Below, piece after piece: positions 1,769 to 59,407 of a stretch of DNA of 64,000 nt. Each line of letters begins with the position of its first letter. Position 1 is the first letter of the stretch. The notes below the pieces were generated by a model that worked only from the letters and a program-made list of their open reading frames with translations, was not told the origin of the DNA and did not search any database. Source of the stretch: an uncultured Armatimonadota bacterium (lineage in GTDB: Bacteria > Armatimonadota > Fimbriimonadia > Fimbriimonadales > Fimbriimonadaceae); contig CAILEM010000060.1 of NCBI GenBank assembly GCA_903833215.1, forward strand, positions 1 to 64,000, given 5' to 3'. A program made the translations under genes and the position numbers.

Positions 1769-2005
1769 GTGGAAGCATCACCACTAACGCCCTTAGCCAT
1801 GCAAGTAATGTCTCCAGCGACGATAGAGAACTTCAAAGTTAAGGTTCCCAATTTTGTAGAGTCGGTCAAATCCGCTTCTGCTGACACCATAATCTTAATG
1901 CTTGATGCTTTCGCCGGTGAACCTGCGCTGCTCTACGATTCCATCTGGTACGCCACCAAGGCTGGGAAGAGCGTAGAATTCGTACCGGACGAAGAGCAAG
2001 GGTAA
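1769..2005 (+). CDS. Small hypothetical protein
   Basis: A 78-residue reading frame with a GTG start and a G-rich stretch about 14 bp upstream that is a poor but possible ribosome binding site. The sequence is mildly acidic with an alternating hydrophobic pattern (ADTIILMLDAFAGEPALLYDSIWYATKAGKSVEF) and no signal peptide or membrane segment. I do not recognise the family. Coding status is uncertain: codon usage looks plausible, and the neighbouring minus-strand gene ends 88 bp further on without overlap. Confidence 0.4.
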   Translation: MEASPLTPLAMQVMSPATIENFKVKVPNFVESVKSASADTIILMLDAFAGEPALLYDSIWYATKAGKSVEFVPDEEQG

Positions 2006-2092: not shown

Positions 2093-3373
2093 CTAGAAGC
2101 GCCATTCTCCAAACAGACCAGTCCGCACGGCTCTCCAGCGACGCTCAATAATTCGTGTGAACGCTTCATCGGAAAAACCGAGTTGGTGGAGAACGGCGAT
2201 CTCAAAAACCATGGTCAGGCGTCGGTAGATGTAGTAGAGCTCCGAGCTTGGCACGGCTTTTCGCTTCAGCTCAGGCGTTTGATGGGCAAGATAATTTCGC
2301 GTATCTGCAATCGACTTGCACTCACCCTTCTTCAATAGGTCTTGAATTGAGGGTCCAAGTTTGACCACCAGATCTTCAAGGCGAGCTTGAAGTGTGACAG
2401 CTGGTGCTCTTTTCGGTTTCCCACTTGTTTGGGGTAGTGGTGAATAGTAAGTGCGGTGAAAACTCTCAAGCGCCGAGACCATGCTGAAGAAGCGGAACTC
2501 GACGTGTAAGCCCGACGTTCGTTTGCTTTCGCGGTAAAGATCGAGCGCCAGGGGGATGGCTTCATAGAGAGAGAACCACCTGTCGAGTTGTGTCTCTAGA
2601 CTGTCGCGAACTTCCCAGAACTCAACCAAGGGATATGGGTTTCGGAAGTCTTGGCGGCCTGCTTTCTTCCAATTTGCCATGACATAGATCAAGTCATCTG
2701 ATCCGGTGTTGGGACTCTTGACGTGAACGTGCTCTAAGGTTGCCGGACAGTCCCGCGCAAACTCCACGAACGACTCGAACTTCTGCGAGTAGCGCAGTAA
2801 CTCGGAAAGCACGACCGGCTGTGGGGGTACCAGCGCAAACTTGCTCTGCTGAATTAGTTCAAGGCGAGCGACCGGCGTCCGGCTGTGCGAGTACCGCATG
2901 AAAACGCAGTATTGGATTGCCATGCCGCTTCCGAACGACCAAGTCAGCGCCGGTGGAATCTCGTAATGAGCATCGAACACGCCACCGTCAGACCTTCGGT
3001 CAACGCCGGAAAAATTTCCGTATTGAAACCAATCGTGTAACTCCGGGATAGAGCATTCCATAGTTGGAAAGCTGGCCGACGGTTCAAAGTGCCCCCCGAC
3101 AAGGATCGTGTCGGGGATCAGTTCAACTTCGTCCTCAAATGCTGCGAACAAACTTCCTAAGACCTTGACTCCCCATATGGAAACTGGGTCGTCTCCATCG
3201 CCAAACAGGCAGGCAAGTTGCTTCTGACTCAGGAATGCTGGCCGGTCATCAGGAAGATTGAAAGCAACCAACCGCAGACTGTCTTCTTCTTTGACAATCC
3301 GAGCACGGCATTTTTCTTCGGGCCTTGCTGGGTCATAGATCCAAAATGGAGCAAAATCGGTTTCGGCACGCAC
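2093..3373 (-). CDS. ApeA-like HEPN domain protein (candidate anti-phage RNase)
   Basis: A 426-residue protein laid out like the ApeA family of abortive-infection proteins: an N-terminal beta-rich region (about 1-190, beginning DFAPFWIYDP), and a helical C-terminal HEPN domain. The HEPN catalytic signature Rx4-6H is present as RNYLAH, with Arg 359 and His 364, preceded by a helix containing LEDLVVKLGPSI. In the family, such a motif cleaves RNA, typically tRNA or rRNA, on phage sensing. The start is a GTG with a weak ribosome binding site. A second minus-strand gene lies 78 bp upstream and could be co-transcribed. The family assignment rests on the N-terminal layout plus the HEPN motif; function in defence is inferred. 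Confidence 0.72.
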   Translation of the reverse strand: MRAETDFAPFWIYDPARPEEKCRARIVKEEDSLRLVAFNLPDDRPAFLSQKQLACLFGDGDDPVSIWGVKVLGSLFAAFEDEVELIPDTILVGGHFEPSASFPTMECSIPELHDWFQYGNFSGVDRRSDGGVFDAHYEIPPALTWSFGSGMAIQYCVFMRYSHSRTPVARLELIQQSKFALVPPQPVVLSELLRYSQKFESFVEFARDCPATLEHVHVKSPNTGSDDLIYVMANWKKAGRQDFRNPYPLVEFWEVRDSLETQLDRWFSLYEAIPLALDLYRESKRTSGLHVEFRFFSMVSALESFHRTYYSPLPQTSGKPKRAPAVTLQARLEDLVVKLGPSIQDLLKKGECKSIADTRNYLAHQTPELKRKAVPSSELYYIYRRLTMVFEIAVLHQLGFSDEAFTRIIERRWRAVRTGLFGEWRF

Positions 3374-3451
3374 TCCGTAACATTACCAAGTCGGTTGGAT
3401 GCTCGAAGGAGGACCTACCGCTTTAAATTTGCCGGTGAAGTTTCCCGGACA

Positions 3452-4012
3452 CTATTCGAGGTCTTCGCCATTTTCAAGGTGGTCGAGATAACAGCCTAAA
3501 TTGCCAGCAATCTTGCCAAGCACGCGCGGTAGGAACGTAGCAAATTCTTGGAAGGTTGGCTTGTCTCCGGAGGGACCGCCGTGGTAGTACCGCATATGAT
3601 CCATGACCTGGCGTCGTTCCTCAGTTGACAGCAGATCCAGAGGGTTGCGATGATTCCAATCATGGAATGACGACAGGTGAATGAATGAGCAGCCGAATTG
3701 GTACACGGATTTTGCCCAGCCGTGCAAGATTTGGCCAAGGTCAACCATCTCCTTGTCCGTGACCCGTTTCCCATTGGCGTGGCGCATTACTACACCATTG
3801 ACAAGGCTCGCGACAAGAGTGCTCCGGGCCGCATGATCAGAAAGCGAAAGGAGATACATGACGCGAACCATCGAGTCAAGCTCCTGTCGAAGGATCGCTA
3901 CTGCTTGGCCATAGGCAGCCACGCCCATAACGGCATCCATCGATCTCCGGTGTTCCTCAGATCGATTTCTCACCTGTCGGCAAAACATTTGTAGCTCTTC
4001 TGTCGAATTCAT
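3452..4012 (-). CDS. Hypothetical helical protein upstream of the ApeA-like gene
   Basis: A protein of 186 residues from the ATG at 4012, which has AGG about 6 bp upstream; an ATG seven codons earlier is also open. The sequence is mostly alpha-helical and contains a distinctive aromatic and histidine-rich segment, VYQFGCSFIHLSSFHDW, then RRQVMDHMRYYHGG. I have a weak recollection of this segment in uncharacterised bacterial proteins with HEPN-like folds, but there is no canonical Rx4H motif. The same-strand arrangement with the HEPN nuclease gene suggests a two-gene unit. Function unknown. Confidence 0.7.
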   Translation of the reverse strand: MNSTEELQMFCRQVRNRSEEHRRSMDAVMGVAAYGQAVAILRQELDSMVRVMYLLSLSDHAARSTLVASLVNGVVMRHANGKRVTDKEMVDLGQILHGWAKSVYQFGCSFIHLSSFHDWNHRNPLDLLSTEERRQVMDHMRYYHGGPSGDKPTFQEFATFLPRVLGKIAGNLGCYLDHLENGEDLE

Positions 4013-14829: not shown

Positions 14830-15336
14830 CTAGAACGAGAGGCCGAGACCAACAATCTGCTTCATGGGTAGATACATATGCAGAGGATTGTCGAGAAGAG
14901 CAACGAATCCGTATCGCTCGTAGAACGCCTTCGCTCCATCGTCAATGGCATCGACCTCAACTGCATGCACCGCAACGTCACGGTTGATCTCGCTGCACCG
15001 CCAAAGTGCGTGCATGAGAAGATACTCGCCGAGTCGGAGCCCTCTCCAGTTGAGATCCACTGCGAGGCGTCCCAGCAAGATAACCGGCATGGGCATGTTT
15101 GGAGGGAGCTTCTTCACATCCGGTAAGTGCTGAAATGAAACACGTCCAGAAGCCAAGGTGTAGTAGCCGATTACGGTTAATGAGCCCTCTTCGACTGCGA
15201 CAAAGGTGCGACCAATGTTTCGCTCATCGTTTTGAACAGCAAGTTGCTGAATGTAGCGATCAAGCGATTGCTCGCCGCATTTGAAGTGTTTCCTCTCGTG
15301 GGATCTCGTCAGACGTTCAATCCGAATCGGATTCAC
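14830..15336 (-). CDS. tacT: GNAT acetyltransferase toxin of a TacAT-type system
   Basis: A 168-residue GNAT-fold protein: beta strand TFVAVEEGSLTVIGYYTLASG, the acetyl-CoA loop in RLAVDLNWRGLRLGEYLLMHAL (Q/R-x-x-G-x-G/A variant), and the C-terminal YERYGFVALLDNPLHMYLPM. GNAT toxins of the TacT family acetylate the amino group of aminoacyl-tRNAs and so block translation. Its start codon overlaps the end of the DUF1778 antitoxin gene by 4 bp (ATGA). That gene order, antitoxin first, is typical. Assignment to the TA family is from fold plus neighbour. Confidence 0.87.
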   Translation of the reverse strand: MNPIRIERLTRSHERKHFKCGEQSLDRYIQQLAVQNDERNIGRTFVAVEEGSLTVIGYYTLASGRVSFQHLPDVKKLPPNMPMPVILLGRLAVDLNWRGLRLGEYLLMHALWRCSEINRDVAVHAVEVDAIDDGAKAFYERYGFVALLDNPLHMYLPMKQIVGLGLSF

Positions 15337-17623: not shown

Positions 17624-18043
17624 CTATTCTCGCCACGGGTTTATCACCCGAATGCCGCAATCCACGAAGTCATCGATATTCCGCGTTGCCAGCGACGCGC
17701 CTCGGGATCGTGCGATGGCGGCGATTTGAGCATCAAATTGCATGATTGGACGGCCCGCTCTTCGGCGGTCGGCGACGATCTGCGCATATGCGGTCGCAGC
17801 AGTTTGATCAAACGGCAGAACCCGGCCTGCGAAATCTTCAGTCAACACCAGTTCTAGAGCCACCTCTAATCCATCGCGACGTTTGCCAGGCGGCAATATC
17901 TGTAACCCCAAACGAAGTTCAGCTTCGGTCACGGCGCATATGAACAATGCTGTGGGCGACTGGGTCCTCATCCATGACTGAACTTCAGGAGCCGGCGAAA
18001 GTCGCATAAACTCCGAAATCACATTCGTGTCGAGCAGAATCAT
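17624..18043 (-). CDS. fitB: PIN-domain toxin, FitB-type
   Basis: A 139-residue PIN nuclease. The acidic metal-binding residues are visible in order: Asp 5 (LLDTNVISE), Glu 41 (TEAELRLGL), Asp 104 (MQFDAQIAAIA) and Asp 122 (TRNIDDF). PIN toxins cut RNA, commonly tRNA or mRNA. The neighbouring antitoxin overlaps by 4 bp and starts upstream, the usual arrangement for FitAB/VapBC systems. The FitB name reflects the FMRLSP and PRKRRDGLE-like pattern; VapC is an equally acceptable label. Confidence 0.88.
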   Translation of the reverse strand: MILLDTNVISEFMRLSPAPEVQSWMRTQSPTALFICAVTEAELRLGLQILPPGKRRDGLEVALELVLTEDFAGRVLPFDQTAATAYAQIVADRRRAGRPIMQFDAQIAAIARSRGASLATRNIDDFVDCGIRVINPWRE

Positions 18044-51062: not shown

Positions 51063-52352
51063 CTAGGGCGAGAGAGAGCTGCGAGAAGGCAAGGTGGCAT
51101 CTGGATCTCCGACAACGGCCTTGTACTCCGCGATTAAATCAAATTCCTCGGCAAACCGCCCAAAGCCTGCCGCGTAATGGCAGAGCAGTCTGGCTGCGAG
51201 TTTCTGTTGCCGCACGCCAATTACCATTGACCCGTTCACGGGGTTCCATAGGACGTTGCTCCAGATCGGGTGCTGTACATTGAGCAACTGTTTCGGGAGG
51301 CCATTCCTTATCTCCAACCAGGATTCGTTGATTGCTTGGCTACTGACAGGCTCCCTGTCAGCGAGAAGTCGAACTGCCCGCGCAAAGGACATTTGACCGA
51401 CTGGCAGGGTAATTAATTTCCCTTCAGCCCTGGAAGTTGATACGGCGTCGACTCTAACCAATTCGGAGACATTAGTCCAATAATCCGATGATAGTTCGAA
51501 GATCTTGTCGATGACCATGTCGCTGGGTCGATCTGAGTTAGTTAGCGTCTTACGATCCCAAATCGTTGAGCCATCTCCAAGTGCTTGGCCGTAGGCAGAA
51601 TTTAGGGTCAATATTTCGCAGATTTTGTATATGGCGAGTGGGGTCGTGAAGTGATTGCTCGTTTTACCAAGACTCGAGCTCTTCGGGCTGGAAACCAAAT
51701 CTTTGATCTTGAGGAAGGGATGTTGATGGATGAGCCTCCTCGTCACAATGGCGAGGCCGTCATCTTCGTCCAAAACAACGCGCTCACCGGGGGTGATCTT
51801 TTGTGCATGACGATTAATGGTGGTAGACAGCCGCCAAGAATATTCTGTTCCTCGGTCTGCAACCAATAACACACTAAGGACTTCGTCACCCAAAGAAGGT
51901 GACTTAGACAGCGCTTTCCGCAGCCCGGCTAGCCTCAGTTGACCGTCGACTACAGTTAGAGTTTCGTCTCCAGCAAGTTGAATTACACCAAGGGCCTTAT
52001 TGATCCGGACTAACTCACACCCAGACAAAGAATCAACAGTGAGGTGTTCCGTGTCGACAAGCGATAGGTCAATCCATTTAGGGGTACCGCCGCCAACGCT
52101 AACGACCAAGCTGCTGAAAAATCTTTCCTTGCGTTGGACAAGGTAGTTGCTGATCTTGGCGACCCGTCTGTCTAGCAACCCCCTCTTGGGATCGTGATTG
52201 TCCCGCCAAGTATCTGCCAAATCCTTGGCGGATTTGACCCGCTCAACGATGTCGACAATTCTCATCGTTGCCGAATAATAGGTCCAATCTCCAATAGCAC
52301 AGCGTAAGGCTGGAAGGTGAAGGGCTCGGCTGGACGTCGTTTGTTCTTCCAT
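51063..52352 (-). CDS. DGQHR-domain protein (DndB-like)
   Basis: A 429-residue protein. Residues 136-140 read DGQLR, the DGQHR signature with His replaced by Leu, inside TLTVVDGQLRLAGLRKAL; then VLLVADRGTEYSWRLSTTINRHAQKITPGERVVLDEDDG, typical of the DndB/DptB group. DndB is a transcriptional regulator and accessory of DNA phosphorothioate modification and of DGQHR systems in phage defence. No dndC/D/E genes are nearby; its closest neighbour is an HNH-HIT fusion. Function therefore open. Confidence 0.8.
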   Translation of the reverse strand: MEEQTTSSRALHLPALRCAIGDWTYYSATMRIVDIVERVKSAKDLADTWRDNHDPKRGLLDRRVAKISNYLVQRKERFFSSLVVSVGGGTPKWIDLSLVDTEHLTVDSLSGCELVRINKALGVIQLAGDETLTVVDGQLRLAGLRKALSKSPSLGDEVLSVLLVADRGTEYSWRLSTTINRHAQKITPGERVVLDEDDGLAIVTRRLIHQHPFLKIKDLVSSPKSSSLGKTSNHFTTPLAIYKICEILTLNSAYGQALGDGSTIWDRKTLTNSDRPSDMVIDKIFELSSDYWTNVSELVRVDAVSTSRAEGKLITLPVGQMSFARAVRLLADREPVSSQAINESWLEIRNGLPKQLLNVQHPIWSNVLWNPVNGSMVIGVRQQKLAARLLCHYAAGFGRFAEEFDLIAEYKAVVGDPDATLPSRSSLSP

Positions 52353-52682: not shown

Positions 52683-53669
52683 CTAACTGTAATAATTCCC
52701 TTTCCCAGGAATGATATTTCGAATGCCCCCAACAGGGTCATCGATGTCACCCTGTCGGCGCGGCATGATGTGAGCGTGGCAATGCATTACTGTCTGACCA
52801 GCAGTGGTTCCGTTGTTGAAACCAATATTGAAACCCTTGATTTTCGGATCCAACCTCATTAACTCATCTCTGGCTTGCTCAATCAGAGAGTGCATACAGT
52901 TTCGCTCTGCGCTTCGTAAGCCGAAATAGTCCGATATATGACGTTTGGGAATAACGAGGAGGTGGCCCGGAACAACGGGGTAATTGTCGTCAAAGGCCAG
53001 ACACAACGAATTCTCGAAGCGGATGGTCCTTCGAGTCGTTTCACAGAAAATACAACCGGTCTCCCTATCATCGTACAAAGCCCGTATCCCCCTAAAATCC
53101 GTGCCATCTCGGTCTCTTTTCATGGCGTTGCACGAATAGCAAAGGGCCTGAAAATTTTCAATCGCATCAGCGCCTCCATGAGATCTTGGCTCAATATGGT
53201 CAACCTCAAGTGCTTTCTCGTCGGCTGAGATTCCGCACAACTCGCAGCGGTATGAAGCTCTCTTCAAGACCTCGTAGCGGACGGTCCCTGGTATGTAGCC
53301 CTCCGACCGCCTGCGGTGGGTCCAGATCTTTTCTCCACGTTTCTTGATGTACGTATCCAGTTTCTCTTCGCATATCGAAACCAGCTCTGACACTTCTTGT
53401 GGGGAATAGGTCTCAAAATTCGGCAATACATACTGAGATCCAACCTTATCAACCACGCCGTTCCTTTTTAGGACAGGCCCAACCATATTCGTGGTTATTT
53501 TTTCGTAGTACTCAATCTGGCTGTCATCGTAGCTGAGAATTGCAGCTGCTATTTCCCTCTTTGAGGCCCTACCATTTCCATTAAGAAGCCGTTTAATCAT
53601 TACCGGCTGGTAAATGTGAGACATTCGCATCGAATGCAAAATGAAAGTACGGAGTTCAAGAAAATTCAT
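52683..53669 (-). CDS. HNH nuclease - HIT domain fusion
   Basis: A 328-residue fusion. Residues 1-125 are helical with a winged-helix-like part. About 140-190 are an HNH domain: YRCELCGISADEKALEVDHI with ERSHGG and LCYSCNAMK (zinc ribbons CxxC at 142-145 and CxxC at 177-180). About 205-328 form a HIT domain: CIFCE, HLLVIPKRHI and the HIT triad HCHAHIM at 296-300. HIT enzymes act on nucleoside phosphates, HNH on nucleic acids. Fusions of these two are found in defence-like contexts. It is same-strand and upstream of the DGQHR gene, possibly one transcript. Confidence 0.85.
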   Translation of the reverse strand: MNFLELRTFILHSMRMSHIYQPVMIKRLLNGNGRASKREIAAAILSYDDSQIEYYEKITTNMVGPVLKRNGVVDKVGSQYVLPNFETYSPQEVSELVSICEEKLDTYIKKRGEKIWTHRRRSEGYIPGTVRYEVLKRASYRCELCGISADEKALEVDHIEPRSHGGADAIENFQALCYSCNAMKRDRDGTDFRGIRALYDDRETGCIFCETTRRTIRFENSLCLAFDDNYPVVPGHLLVIPKRHISDYFGLRSAERNCMHSLIEQARDELMRLDPKIKGFNIGFNNGTTAGQTVMHCHAHIMPRRQGDIDDPVGGIRNIIPGKGNYYS

Positions 53670-55844: not shown

Positions 55845-58800
55845 TCACTTGGCGCTTTCCGAATCAGCCATGCCTTTCAACTTGCAGAACAGGTTTACGA
55901 GTTGCATTTCTTCGATGGAACCCGCCGAGGTTTGGGCGATTCGGGGGTCGGCGATGACGATGGCTAGGCATTGGGCTCGGGAAATGGCGACGTTGATTCG
56001 GTTTTTGTCGAGGATGAAAGCGAGTCCTCGGGCACCGTATTCGCCGTAGCTGCTACACAACGAAAGGATGCACACGGGGGCTTCTTGGCCTTGGAAGCGG
56101 TCGACGCTGCCGACTTTGGCACCGGGTGGTAGGGCCAGTTCGAGGCCTCGGACCTGGGAGTTGTAGGGGGAGATGAACATGAAGTCCTTCAGTTCTAGCG
56201 GGCGGGTTTCGCCATGCTTATCGGTGTAAGGCTTGCCGAGCAGTTGGTCTACGATGCGGCGAGCCACCGCGATCTCCTCATCGCTTCGTTGGACGTTTCC
56301 ATCATGCTCAACGCCCAGAAATGAGATCCCTGCGCCTTTGCCCTCCAGCCCGAATTCGGCAGGCAGATCCACGATGTGCTGCCGTTCGCAGTCGGAATGC
56401 GAGCCCAAGCGGCCCTCGTAGATGCTGTCGGAGATGAACGAACACACCGATGGATGCATGCGACGGGTTTCGCCCATGAAGATTCCGAAGTCCGCAGGTA
56501 CCACAGCGTGAAACACTGGTGCATCCGGCGCGCTGGCCTTCGTGTCCTTCAACGCATACTGAAGCACTGAGAGTCCGGCGTCGCCAGGATGGGACCCCTG
56601 AACGGGTTGCTCCAATTGCATCTGGTCACCCAACAACACCAGGTTTCGTGCGCATCGGGAAATGGCAACGGCATTGGCCAATGAGACTTGGCCAGCCTCG
56701 TCGATAAACAGTACATCGAGACCGTCGATCCACTCCGGGCGCGAAAAGAGCCAGGCGGTTCCACCAATTACACCCGTCGTATACTTCTCGCTGGCAATGG
56801 TGTTCGCAGCGACGTAATGAAGGCCTGGATTGCTTTCGTGCAGAGTTTCGTCTTTCTCGCCAGCGGCCTTGATGCCGACAAGTTCGGTCCCGGTTGCTTG
56901 CATCGTCTTTCCGCACGCGGCGAGCAGATTGCCGACCGCCTTGTGGCTATTGCTGCAGACGCCGACCTTCTTTCCTGCTGCCAAAAGCGCTGCGATCATG
57001 TGGGATGCGGTGTATGTTTTTCCGGTGCCGGGAGGACCCTGAATAACAAGGCATTCTCCGTTCATCTCATCAGCGACGCGGATTGCCGCCTCGGTGGGAG
57101 ATTCTTCCGCCTTCCGAAGGCATCTGGAAGGTGCTTTTCGCCAAAGAAGCGCGGATGTTGGAGGATGCAAATTACCGTCAAGCTGCCCTTCCGCAACTGC
57201 GGTCAAGGCTTTGGCGATTTCCTTCGACTCGACGACTTCATAAGGAATCAGAGAGCCTGTTTTCGGAAAATCTCCACCGAATTTGCCGTTGATCGTGGTC
57301 ATTCCCGTCTTTAGCTGAAGTTCGCCTTTACTCAGATCTAGTCCCACCAGCTTGAATTTTGAGTCGAGATCCCAAGGGAACATGACTGTGGACTTTTCTC
57401 CTGGAGAAAGCTTGCATTCCTGATCTGGGTCGAACTTGTAGGTCTGTACCCACGACTTCTTCTCGACGATCTTTTCGCCGATCGCCTTGATGCCTTCGAT
57501 ACACGAAGGGTCCTCTCGCAGGTCCTCGGGGTTGGCGATAGCGCGGTCGAACATCTTCCAGAAAACGGGCTTATTCTCCCGGCGATGGAAGCCGATGAGG
57601 TCTGCTAGAACGGTTGAGACGCCATCTCCCTTCGCGCGTAGATCTCCTACCAGTCTTTGACGGGCAAGGATTTCCTCCGGCAGGATCGGTTCCTCCACGC
57701 TGTCGATTGGGGAAGATTGCGTTGCGGCGATTCCATTGTTGATCGCGAACTGGCGGAGCCAGAACAGGAGGTCGGCGGTGGAACTGCAGTCGTCCTCGTT
57801 GTAGTCGCGAATGCCTTTGAGGATCGGGCTTTGGTGCCAGTCTTTGGGTTCACACGTTTCGATCCATCGTGCGTATTGAACGATGCTATCGACGGCATTA
57901 GCGACATCGGTGGAGCGTTTGGGACGATACAGCCGCTCGACTCGCTTGATGCTGTAACTATCCTCGCCGATGCGCAAACCATGGCGAACAACTTGGTACA
58001 GATCGACAAAAACGTTGTTGCGAAGGAGGATGTCGACCTCCTCCTGGCGGGTGTCATGCCGCGTGCTCAGACGACGAACCGCACTTACTTCATAAGCTGC
58101 GTAGTGATAAATATGCAGGCCTGGATGGGTCTTCCATCGTGCGTAGACCCAGTCGATGAACCCTTCGAATGCCCGTTTTTCCTCATCCCGATCGTGTGCC
58201 CACCAATCGAGAAACTGGGGTGAGTCGGGATCAAGGATCCATACGCCAAAGAGGTATTCCAGGCCACCCTGCACGAGCGGATACCCTTCCATATCGAAAA
58301 ATACGTCGGCGTCATGGGCAGGAGGCAGGGCGGCAAGTCCCACTGGCTGACCACTGGCACCGACCGGTGGCAAGATTTCAACCGCAGGGGGTGCAGCTGG
58401 TTCAACTCTCCGATTGATGTTTGTTTGGACTTGTAGCGAAGCTTGAGCGGCAAGCTTGCGCCTCGATTCCTCAGCGAGTTTGGGAACGGCTCGATCCTCG
58501 GCGGCGGCCAATTCGGTCATGGTGTGAATGCCTGCATTGCGCAGCTTCTTCATTTGACCGACGGTGATTCCGGCGACCTGCACCAAGTGGTCGGTCTCGG
58601 TGAAGTGCCTCTCGGCATAAGAACTCCACTTGCCATGGTTGGCACGCGGAAGCGGCTCCGGTCGCTGGGCCAGATCGGGCTGAAAATTCTCGTGCATCTC
58701 AAGGAAAGCAGACTTGAGTTGCCAGTAGTAGTACAGAAAGTCTTCAACCCGAAACTCGACCTGCTCCTTCGTCCCAAGAATGATCCCGAACTTGGTGGGA

Positions 58801-59273
58801 AGGTCCACACCAGTGGTGTAGGCGAGCATCTCGGAATAACAGCAGAGCTGAATGGCGTAATACGGCTTCGGGGAATTGGCAAGTTTGGTATCCCACACCT
58901 GATACTTGCCATCAGCGTCGTGGATGAGAAAGTCGGAATAGCCCGCGAAATGAGCATCTTCGAGATACGCCTGATAGATGATCGTCGGGTTGAGCGCAAA
59001 CGCCGCCCGAGTTTCGGCTCGTGCGATGGCGACCGACGCTTTGCTCACTTCGACGAGGTCGACGAGTGAGTCCTTATAGGCTTGCAGGACTGCGAGTTCG
59101 TGGGCATCGCCGGTCTTTGCGATAAGCTGCTGGTCTTCCGATTCCTCGTCTGCGAAGACCTCACCCGGACGTTCATGCGAATACCGGTCCATCCACGACG
59201 CGAACGGCGAGTTCGAGTACGTAATCAGGTCGCTCGGAGAAAACACCCACCGCCCATCGCCAGTTCGCTTCAT
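55845..59273 (-). CDS. RecB-like nuclease / DEDD exonuclease-like / SF1 helicase fusion (TM0106 type)
   Basis: From the ATG at 59273 the product is 1142 residues. Region 1-200: RecB/Cas4-like nuclease fold (SPSDLITYSNSPFASWMDRY, FAGYSDFLIHD, YQVWDTKLAN with D and K of the active site). About 235-275: helix-hairpin-helix (LRNAGIHTMTELAAAE). About 320-540: RNase H/DEDD exonuclease-like (ADVFFDMEGYP, LHIYHYAAYEVSAVR, LRDYNEDDCSST-like ending with YNEDDC). About 740-1130: SF1 helicase (GPPGTGKT at about 743, LFIDEAGQ at about 851, SVDRFQGQEAPVCILSL, NVAISRA). The family is common near DNA-repair and Cas/Argonaute-like genes. Processive DNA or RNA end-processing is expected. Confidence 0.9.
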   Translation of the reverse strand: MKRTGDGRWVFSPSDLITYSNSPFASWMDRYSHERPGEVFADEESEDQQLIAKTGDAHELAVLQAYKDSLVDLVEVSKASVAIARAETRAAFALNPTIIYQAYLEDAHFAGYSDFLIHDADGKYQVWDTKLANSPKPYYAIQLCCYSEMLAYTTGVDLPTKFGIILGTKEQVEFRVEDFLYYYWQLKSAFLEMHENFQPDLAQRPEPLPRANHGKWSSYAERHFTETDHLVQVAGITVGQMKKLRNAGIHTMTELAAAEDRAVPKLAEESRRKLAAQASLQVQTNINRRVEPAAPPAVEILPPVGASGQPVGLAALPPAHDADVFFDMEGYPLVQGGLEYLFGVWILDPDSPQFLDWWAHDRDEEKRAFEGFIDWVYARWKTHPGLHIYHYAAYEVSAVRRLSTRHDTRQEEVDILLRNNVFVDLYQVVRHGLRIGEDSYSIKRVERLYRPKRSTDVANAVDSIVQYARWIETCEPKDWHQSPILKGIRDYNEDDCSSTADLLFWLRQFAINNGIAATQSSPIDSVEEPILPEEILARQRLVGDLRAKGDGVSTVLADLIGFHRRENKPVFWKMFDRAIANPEDLREDPSCIEGIKAIGEKIVEKKSWVQTYKFDPDQECKLSPGEKSTVMFPWDLDSKFKLVGLDLSKGELQLKTGMTTINGKFGGDFPKTGSLIPYEVVESKEIAKALTAVAEGQLDGNLHPPTSALLWRKAPSRCLRKAEESPTEAAIRVADEMNGECLVIQGPPGTGKTYTASHMIAALLAAGKKVGVCSNSHKAVGNLLAACGKTMQATGTELVGIKAAGEKDETLHESNPGLHYVAANTIASEKYTTGVIGGTAWLFSRPEWIDGLDVLFIDEAGQVSLANAVAISRCARNLVLLGDQMQLEQPVQGSHPGDAGLSVLQYALKDTKASAPDAPVFHAVVPADFGIFMGETRRMHPSVCSFISDSIYEGRLGSHSDCERQHIVDLPAEFGLEGKGAGISFLGVEHDGNVQRSDEEIAVARRIVDQLLGKPYTDKHGETRPLELKDFMFISPYNSQVRGLELALPPGAKVGSVDRFQGQEAPVCILSLCSSYGEYGARGLAFILDKNRINVAISRAQCLAIVIADPRIAQTSAGSIEEMQLVNLFCKLKGMADSESAK

Positions 59274-59407
59274 GGGATTTATTGTGGGGGAAGGGTGCCC
59301 CAATTCAGCGTATTTTCTGCAAATTGGATGCGTTTCCCTTCTCGCTTCCCTTTTCCGAACGGCTCTTGATTGTTCCTTCGTTCTGTTCTCGGCGATAGCT
59401 GGTTTGT
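59274..59407. other. Promoter region of the nuclease-helicase gene
   Basis: About 130 bp upstream of the minus-strand start, ending where structured element B begins. No clear promoter boxes identified. Confidence 0.3.

Follow-up and report, generated by a model that had tools for sequence, protein, structure and literature searches.

Background

The closest described counterpart of the locus considered here is ApeA, which has been described mainly as a single-gene system, is listed by PADLOC as Cas13-ApeA and is recognised by the Pfam domains PF18862 and PF18739. Deoxydinucleotides are reported as activators of ApeA in the title of a 2026 preprint cited in PMC13405049 and this points, as far as a title goes, to ApeA as its own sensor of infection. 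Two further families bear on the second gene of the locus, namely DUF6988, which is one of the domains that DefensePredictor newly links to defence (PMC13092281) and has lately been reported as part of a validated defence system, and MtlR, which the literature describes as a HEPN family often without the RNase motif (PMC3710099). Together they raise the question of how HEPN-like proteins that lack the motif work in immunity.

The window analysed is a stretch of 64,000 nucleotides from an uncultured Armatimonadota bacterium (contig CAILEM010000060.1), in which an ApeA-type gene lies next to a gene for a 186-aa protein. An earlier note on this DNA had suggested that the 186-aa protein might serve ApeA as a sensor or inhibitor. 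The reading that we prefer, with a probability of about 0.6, is that the locus consists of two independent single-gene defence-type modules lying side by side, and not of a sensor-effector pair.

The gene pair and its surroundings

The features of the locus are the following:

2093..3373, minus strand: apeA, 426 aa, GTG start, with ApeA_NTD1 and a C-terminal Apea-type HEPN domain (Pfam and PADLOC matches, alignments, model of the HEPN part)
2282..2299, minus strand: codons of the RNYLAH active-site motif, apeA residues 359-364 (position computed from the translation)
3374..3451, minus strand: intergenic gap of 78 nt between apeA and the 186-aa gene (sequence)
3452..4012, minus strand: 186-aa all-helical protein of an unnamed mobile, putatively stand-alone family, probably a distant relative of DUF6988 (homologues, alignment, AlphaFold2 model, hhalign)

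The same-strand pairing of the two genes that had been described earlier is borne out by both ORFs, and their being on one strand with only 78 nt between them means that they may be co-transcribed. A consensus scan, which is weak evidence, detected no promoter- or terminator-like site on the minus strand in this region. Both genes resemble the next gene in GC and GC3, and their composition carries no foreign signature. The TPR gene flanking the locus had no DNA match in 19 congeners. A 78-aa ORF without a Pfam match adjoins apeA (window 1769-2005, plus strand), and may be a remnant.

Several other genes of the window, all on the minus strand, were noted in passing. These include a DndB-like, DNA-sulfur modification-associated protein (51063-52352; Pfam DndB, 98 bits), a 1152-aa protein in which an RNase_H_2 domain is combined with AAA domains of the helicase type (55845-59303) and a 328-aa protein in which a HIT domain comes after an HNH endonuclease domain, an unusual-looking combination (52683-53669). 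Two genes of the size of toxin-antitoxin components encode a PIN-domain protein (17624-18043) and a GNAT acetyltransferase (14830-15336).

The 426-aa protein is a diverged ApeA

Pfam searches recovered the beta-rich ApeA_NTD1 domain (PF18862) at residues 10-266 with 57.5 bits against a cut-off of 25.5, and HEPN_Apea (PF18739) at residues 297-403 with 61.6 bits against a cut-off of 24.4, thereby upholding the ApeA layout proposed for this protein. Its best PADLOC match was the candidate model PDC-S58 (115.6 bits), and Cas13-ApeA was matched with 65.3 bits. The GTG start is preceded by an in-frame stop and aligns with residue 1 of other ApeA proteins. The previously given numbering of the RNYLAH site is correct, and R359 and H364, the two ends of the RxxxxH signature, are invariant in all 13 distinct ApeA proteins that were aligned (alignments of 9 and 5 proteins).

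The closest ApeA relatives that we found are only about 20% identical to the window protein, and its sequence alone, used as a query, drew in no relatives from species genomes or IMG/VR. Nine diverged ApeA proteins, when aligned, showed too little conservation in any one stretch to serve for the search, and a tighter set took their place. We also observed that part of the HEPN domain of the window protein is missing (the CPExHxxWLxGRLxxGNE region, at about residues 312-325), a stretch that most full-length aligned relatives have. The AlphaFold2 model has a mean pLDDT of 54 overall and its N-terminal half is poor, and structural comparison was therefore limited to the HEPN part. This part superimposed on the HEPN toxin 7ae9 with a Z of 9.1 (rmsd 4.1, 120 residues), above the unrelated structures in the same comparison. 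Judged by its sequence, the 426-aa protein is a diverged yet ordinary ApeA, and as such adds little that is new.

A small helical protein family

The 186-aa ORF starts at an ATG, and would reach 193 aa if read from a GTG that lies 21 nt before it. Homologues with 39-52% identity in several phyla indicate that it encodes a real protein; they were found in a congener, another member of the phylum, Acidobacteriota (Terriglobia), Planctomycetota, Alpha- and Gammaproteobacteria and Bacteroidetes, as well as on plasmids and IMG/VR contigs. An annotated phage collection returned no match, although contigs in IMG/VR carry the family. The alignment revealed a set of invariant residues that includes R17, R42, E44, S47, R63, W99, Y104 and the run F110-I111-H112. 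The Rx4-6H nuclease motif is absent from the aligned family, as the invariant H112 has no arginine 5-7 positions upstream.

None of the curated models searched, Pfam and PADLOC among them, matched the 186-aa protein above its cut-off. However, Pfam DUF6988 (PF22491) scored 17.0 bits with the window protein, under the cut-off of 27, and such sub-threshold matches recurred in 9 of 14 family members. When the family profile was compared by hhalign with an alignment of seven DUF6988 proteins found in Pseudomonadota, a probability of 86.5 and an E of 4.5e-6 over 95 columns were obtained in this single comparison; the reversed control gave 0.2 and the ApeA alignment 0.5. Such a profile comparison links the family weakly to DUF6988.

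The protein had been called helical in the earlier note, and the AlphaFold2 model agrees in being confident (mean pLDDT 91, pTM 0.86) and essentially all helical. Foldseek alone, run against the PDB and BFVD, gave nothing significant. In a structural second look the ranking was led by MtlR (3brj; Z 7.7, rmsd 4.2, 136 residues) and the HEPN protein AF_0298 (2hsb; Z 7.7, rmsd 3.4, 117 residues), a Z value that helical bundles can reach by chance. Sequence matches in the PDB proved to be designed helical repeats and were rejected as reflecting composition.

Genomic contexts of the family

Loci carrying the family elsewhere were compiled as a plain listing of neighbours, and the names of prophage genes outside the scans are readings by eye of the translations. 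Prophage copies have as neighbours a DNA adenine methylase (L021, L038) or tail genes (L040, L041/L042). Others sit among defence genes: in L024 (3192-7152) a CBASS cyclase, Cap15, an uncharacterised gene, the family member and a TIR protein form one same-strand run, and in L031 the gene lies between the MzaE/AIPR and LmuA genes. HEPN proteins also occur as neighbours, since L023 carries the family near a Swt1-like HEPN protein and, on a Falsirhodobacter plasmid (L032, 3984-5495), an AbiJ-type HEPN gene is followed after 12 nt by a distant family member. Yet other copies are alone among unrelated chromosomal genes, either between leuA and an amidohydrolase gene (L008) or solo (L009). The same-strand arrays of L023 and L024 hinted at the attC sites of integron cassettes, and no repeated family fitting attC was found there.

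No linkage of ApeA and the 186-aa family at the other loci examined

The linkage of the two genes was examined from both sides. The HMM of the 186-aa family found no match in the six-frame translations of 20 ApeA-type loci, which came from other genomes, plasmids and viral contigs; 18 of these loci passed the Pfam cut-off or aligned as full-length ApeA, and two scored under the cut-off. Conversely, the ApeA HMM found nothing at 21 other loci of the 186-aa family. As some of these loci were on short contigs, whole genomes were examined too, and the ApeA HEPN domain was absent from all nine that hold the family. In a sample of 398 Pseudomonadota genomes six had ApeA, four had the 186-aa family and none had both. 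Within the window's phylum, one genome out of 291 combines the two, namely that of the window itself, and the plasmids with ApeA (10) and those with the 186-aa family (5) do not overlap.

The earlier note had called for the co-occurrence of the pair across genomes to be checked, and had held that absence of the 186-aa gene beside most ApeA homologues would count against a sensor or inhibitor role. No such co-occurrence emerged from the other loci and genomes examined, and by that note's own measure the sensor or inhibitor reading fails. On the strength of these sequence comparisons, the 186-aa protein belongs to a family of its own and is probably not an ApeA partner.

Interpretation of the locus

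A two-gene ApeA system specific to this lineage, in which the 186-aa protein binds the short window ApeA as an inhibitor, antitoxin or added sensor, would fit the common strand and the 78-nt gap with no terminator-like site between the genes, the divergence of an ApeA that lacks the HEPN stretch of most full-length relatives, and the position of a distant companion relative 12 nt from an AbiJ HEPN gene. We nevertheless regard it as quite improbable, given that no other locus or genome examined shows the linkage and that the family keeps 39-52% identity where ApeA is missing, so that something other than ApeA shaped its conserved core. What speaks against the favoured reading of independent modules, besides the shared strand and short gap, is that a close ApeA lineage with the companion could exist outside the collections, the closest ApeA relatives found being only about 20% identical. 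The L032 arrangement likewise leaves room for a loose tendency of the family to lie beside HEPN effectors. Were the 186-aa protein a catalytically dead HEPN-like regulatory subunit, pairing promiscuously with the HEPN effectors of defence islands (AbiJ, Swt1-like, ApeA), both the HEPN neighbours in L023 and L032 and the lead of HEPN and MtlR structures in the second look would be explained. However, most neighbours of the family are not HEPN proteins, several prophage and chromosomal copies have no defence-gene neighbour at all, and the Z of 7.7 is within the chance range of helical bundles, all of which makes this idea very improbable.

Somewhat more weight is due to the notion, which we still think unlikely, that ApeA is an independent defence gene beside which a mobile accessory gene without a defence role has come to lie by chance. 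The 186-aa protein does lack a match above any curated cut-off, and some copies stand between housekeeping genes or solo, as in L008 and L009; against this, the family recurs in prophages and beside known defence systems, and its profile is linked to that of DUF6988. We favour two independent modules because relatives of the 186-aa protein spread on their own, as passengers of phages, plasmids and defence islands.

Under the reading of two independent single-gene modules, which would presumably also be independent in vivo, ApeA would be a self-contained sensor-effector. Its beta-rich N-terminal domain would sense a product of phage infection, and this trigger would release the HEPN RNase (R359/H364), whose cleavage of RNA would stop phage production by dormancy or cell death. 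As to the activity of the 186-aa protein, we infer that it most likely acts alone, as a small anti-phage or superinfection-exclusion protein whose helical fold is HEPN/MtlR-like and which has no classical HEPN active site. More specifically, we tentatively propose, at somewhat less than even odds, that its family is a so far undescribed group of stand-alone anti-phage proteins, related to DUF6988 and with a HEPN/MtlR-like fold that lacks the motif, which has been spread by prophages, plasmids and defence islands over at least five phyla.

The result guards against a false two-component reading of ApeA. The modest novelty of the locus would be the unnamed 186-aa family, a candidate stand-alone defence or superinfection gene. 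It is small and widely transferred, no curated model covers it above its cut-off, and it offers a cheap single-gene test. If the protein were to defend alone, it would shed light on the part played in immunity by HEPN-like proteins without the motif.

Comparison with known systems

The PADLOC candidate PDC-S52 gave weak matches in 8 of 14 members of the 186-aa family (best E 0.00069), but the window protein matches it over only about 60 residues, with 15.7 bits. To the MtlR/HEPN fold the resemblance is one of predicted structure, with 3brj and 2hsb leading the ranking at a Z that is reachable by chance for helical bundles; the 186-aa protein differs in having no Rx4-6H motif and in being 7-12% identical in sequence. 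With respect to DUF6988, it falls below the Pfam cut-off and its C-terminal third is unaligned, but the profile alignment spans its residues 18-112, with a shared S-x-E-H, an R...E...R pattern and a conserved F-[IV]-H. The 426-aa protein is set apart from known ApeA by its low identity to the relatives found (about 20%), its shorter HEPN insert and a PDC-S58 score above that of Cas13-ApeA, but shares with ApeA both domains (PF18862 and PF18739), their order, the length class and the RNYxxH motif.
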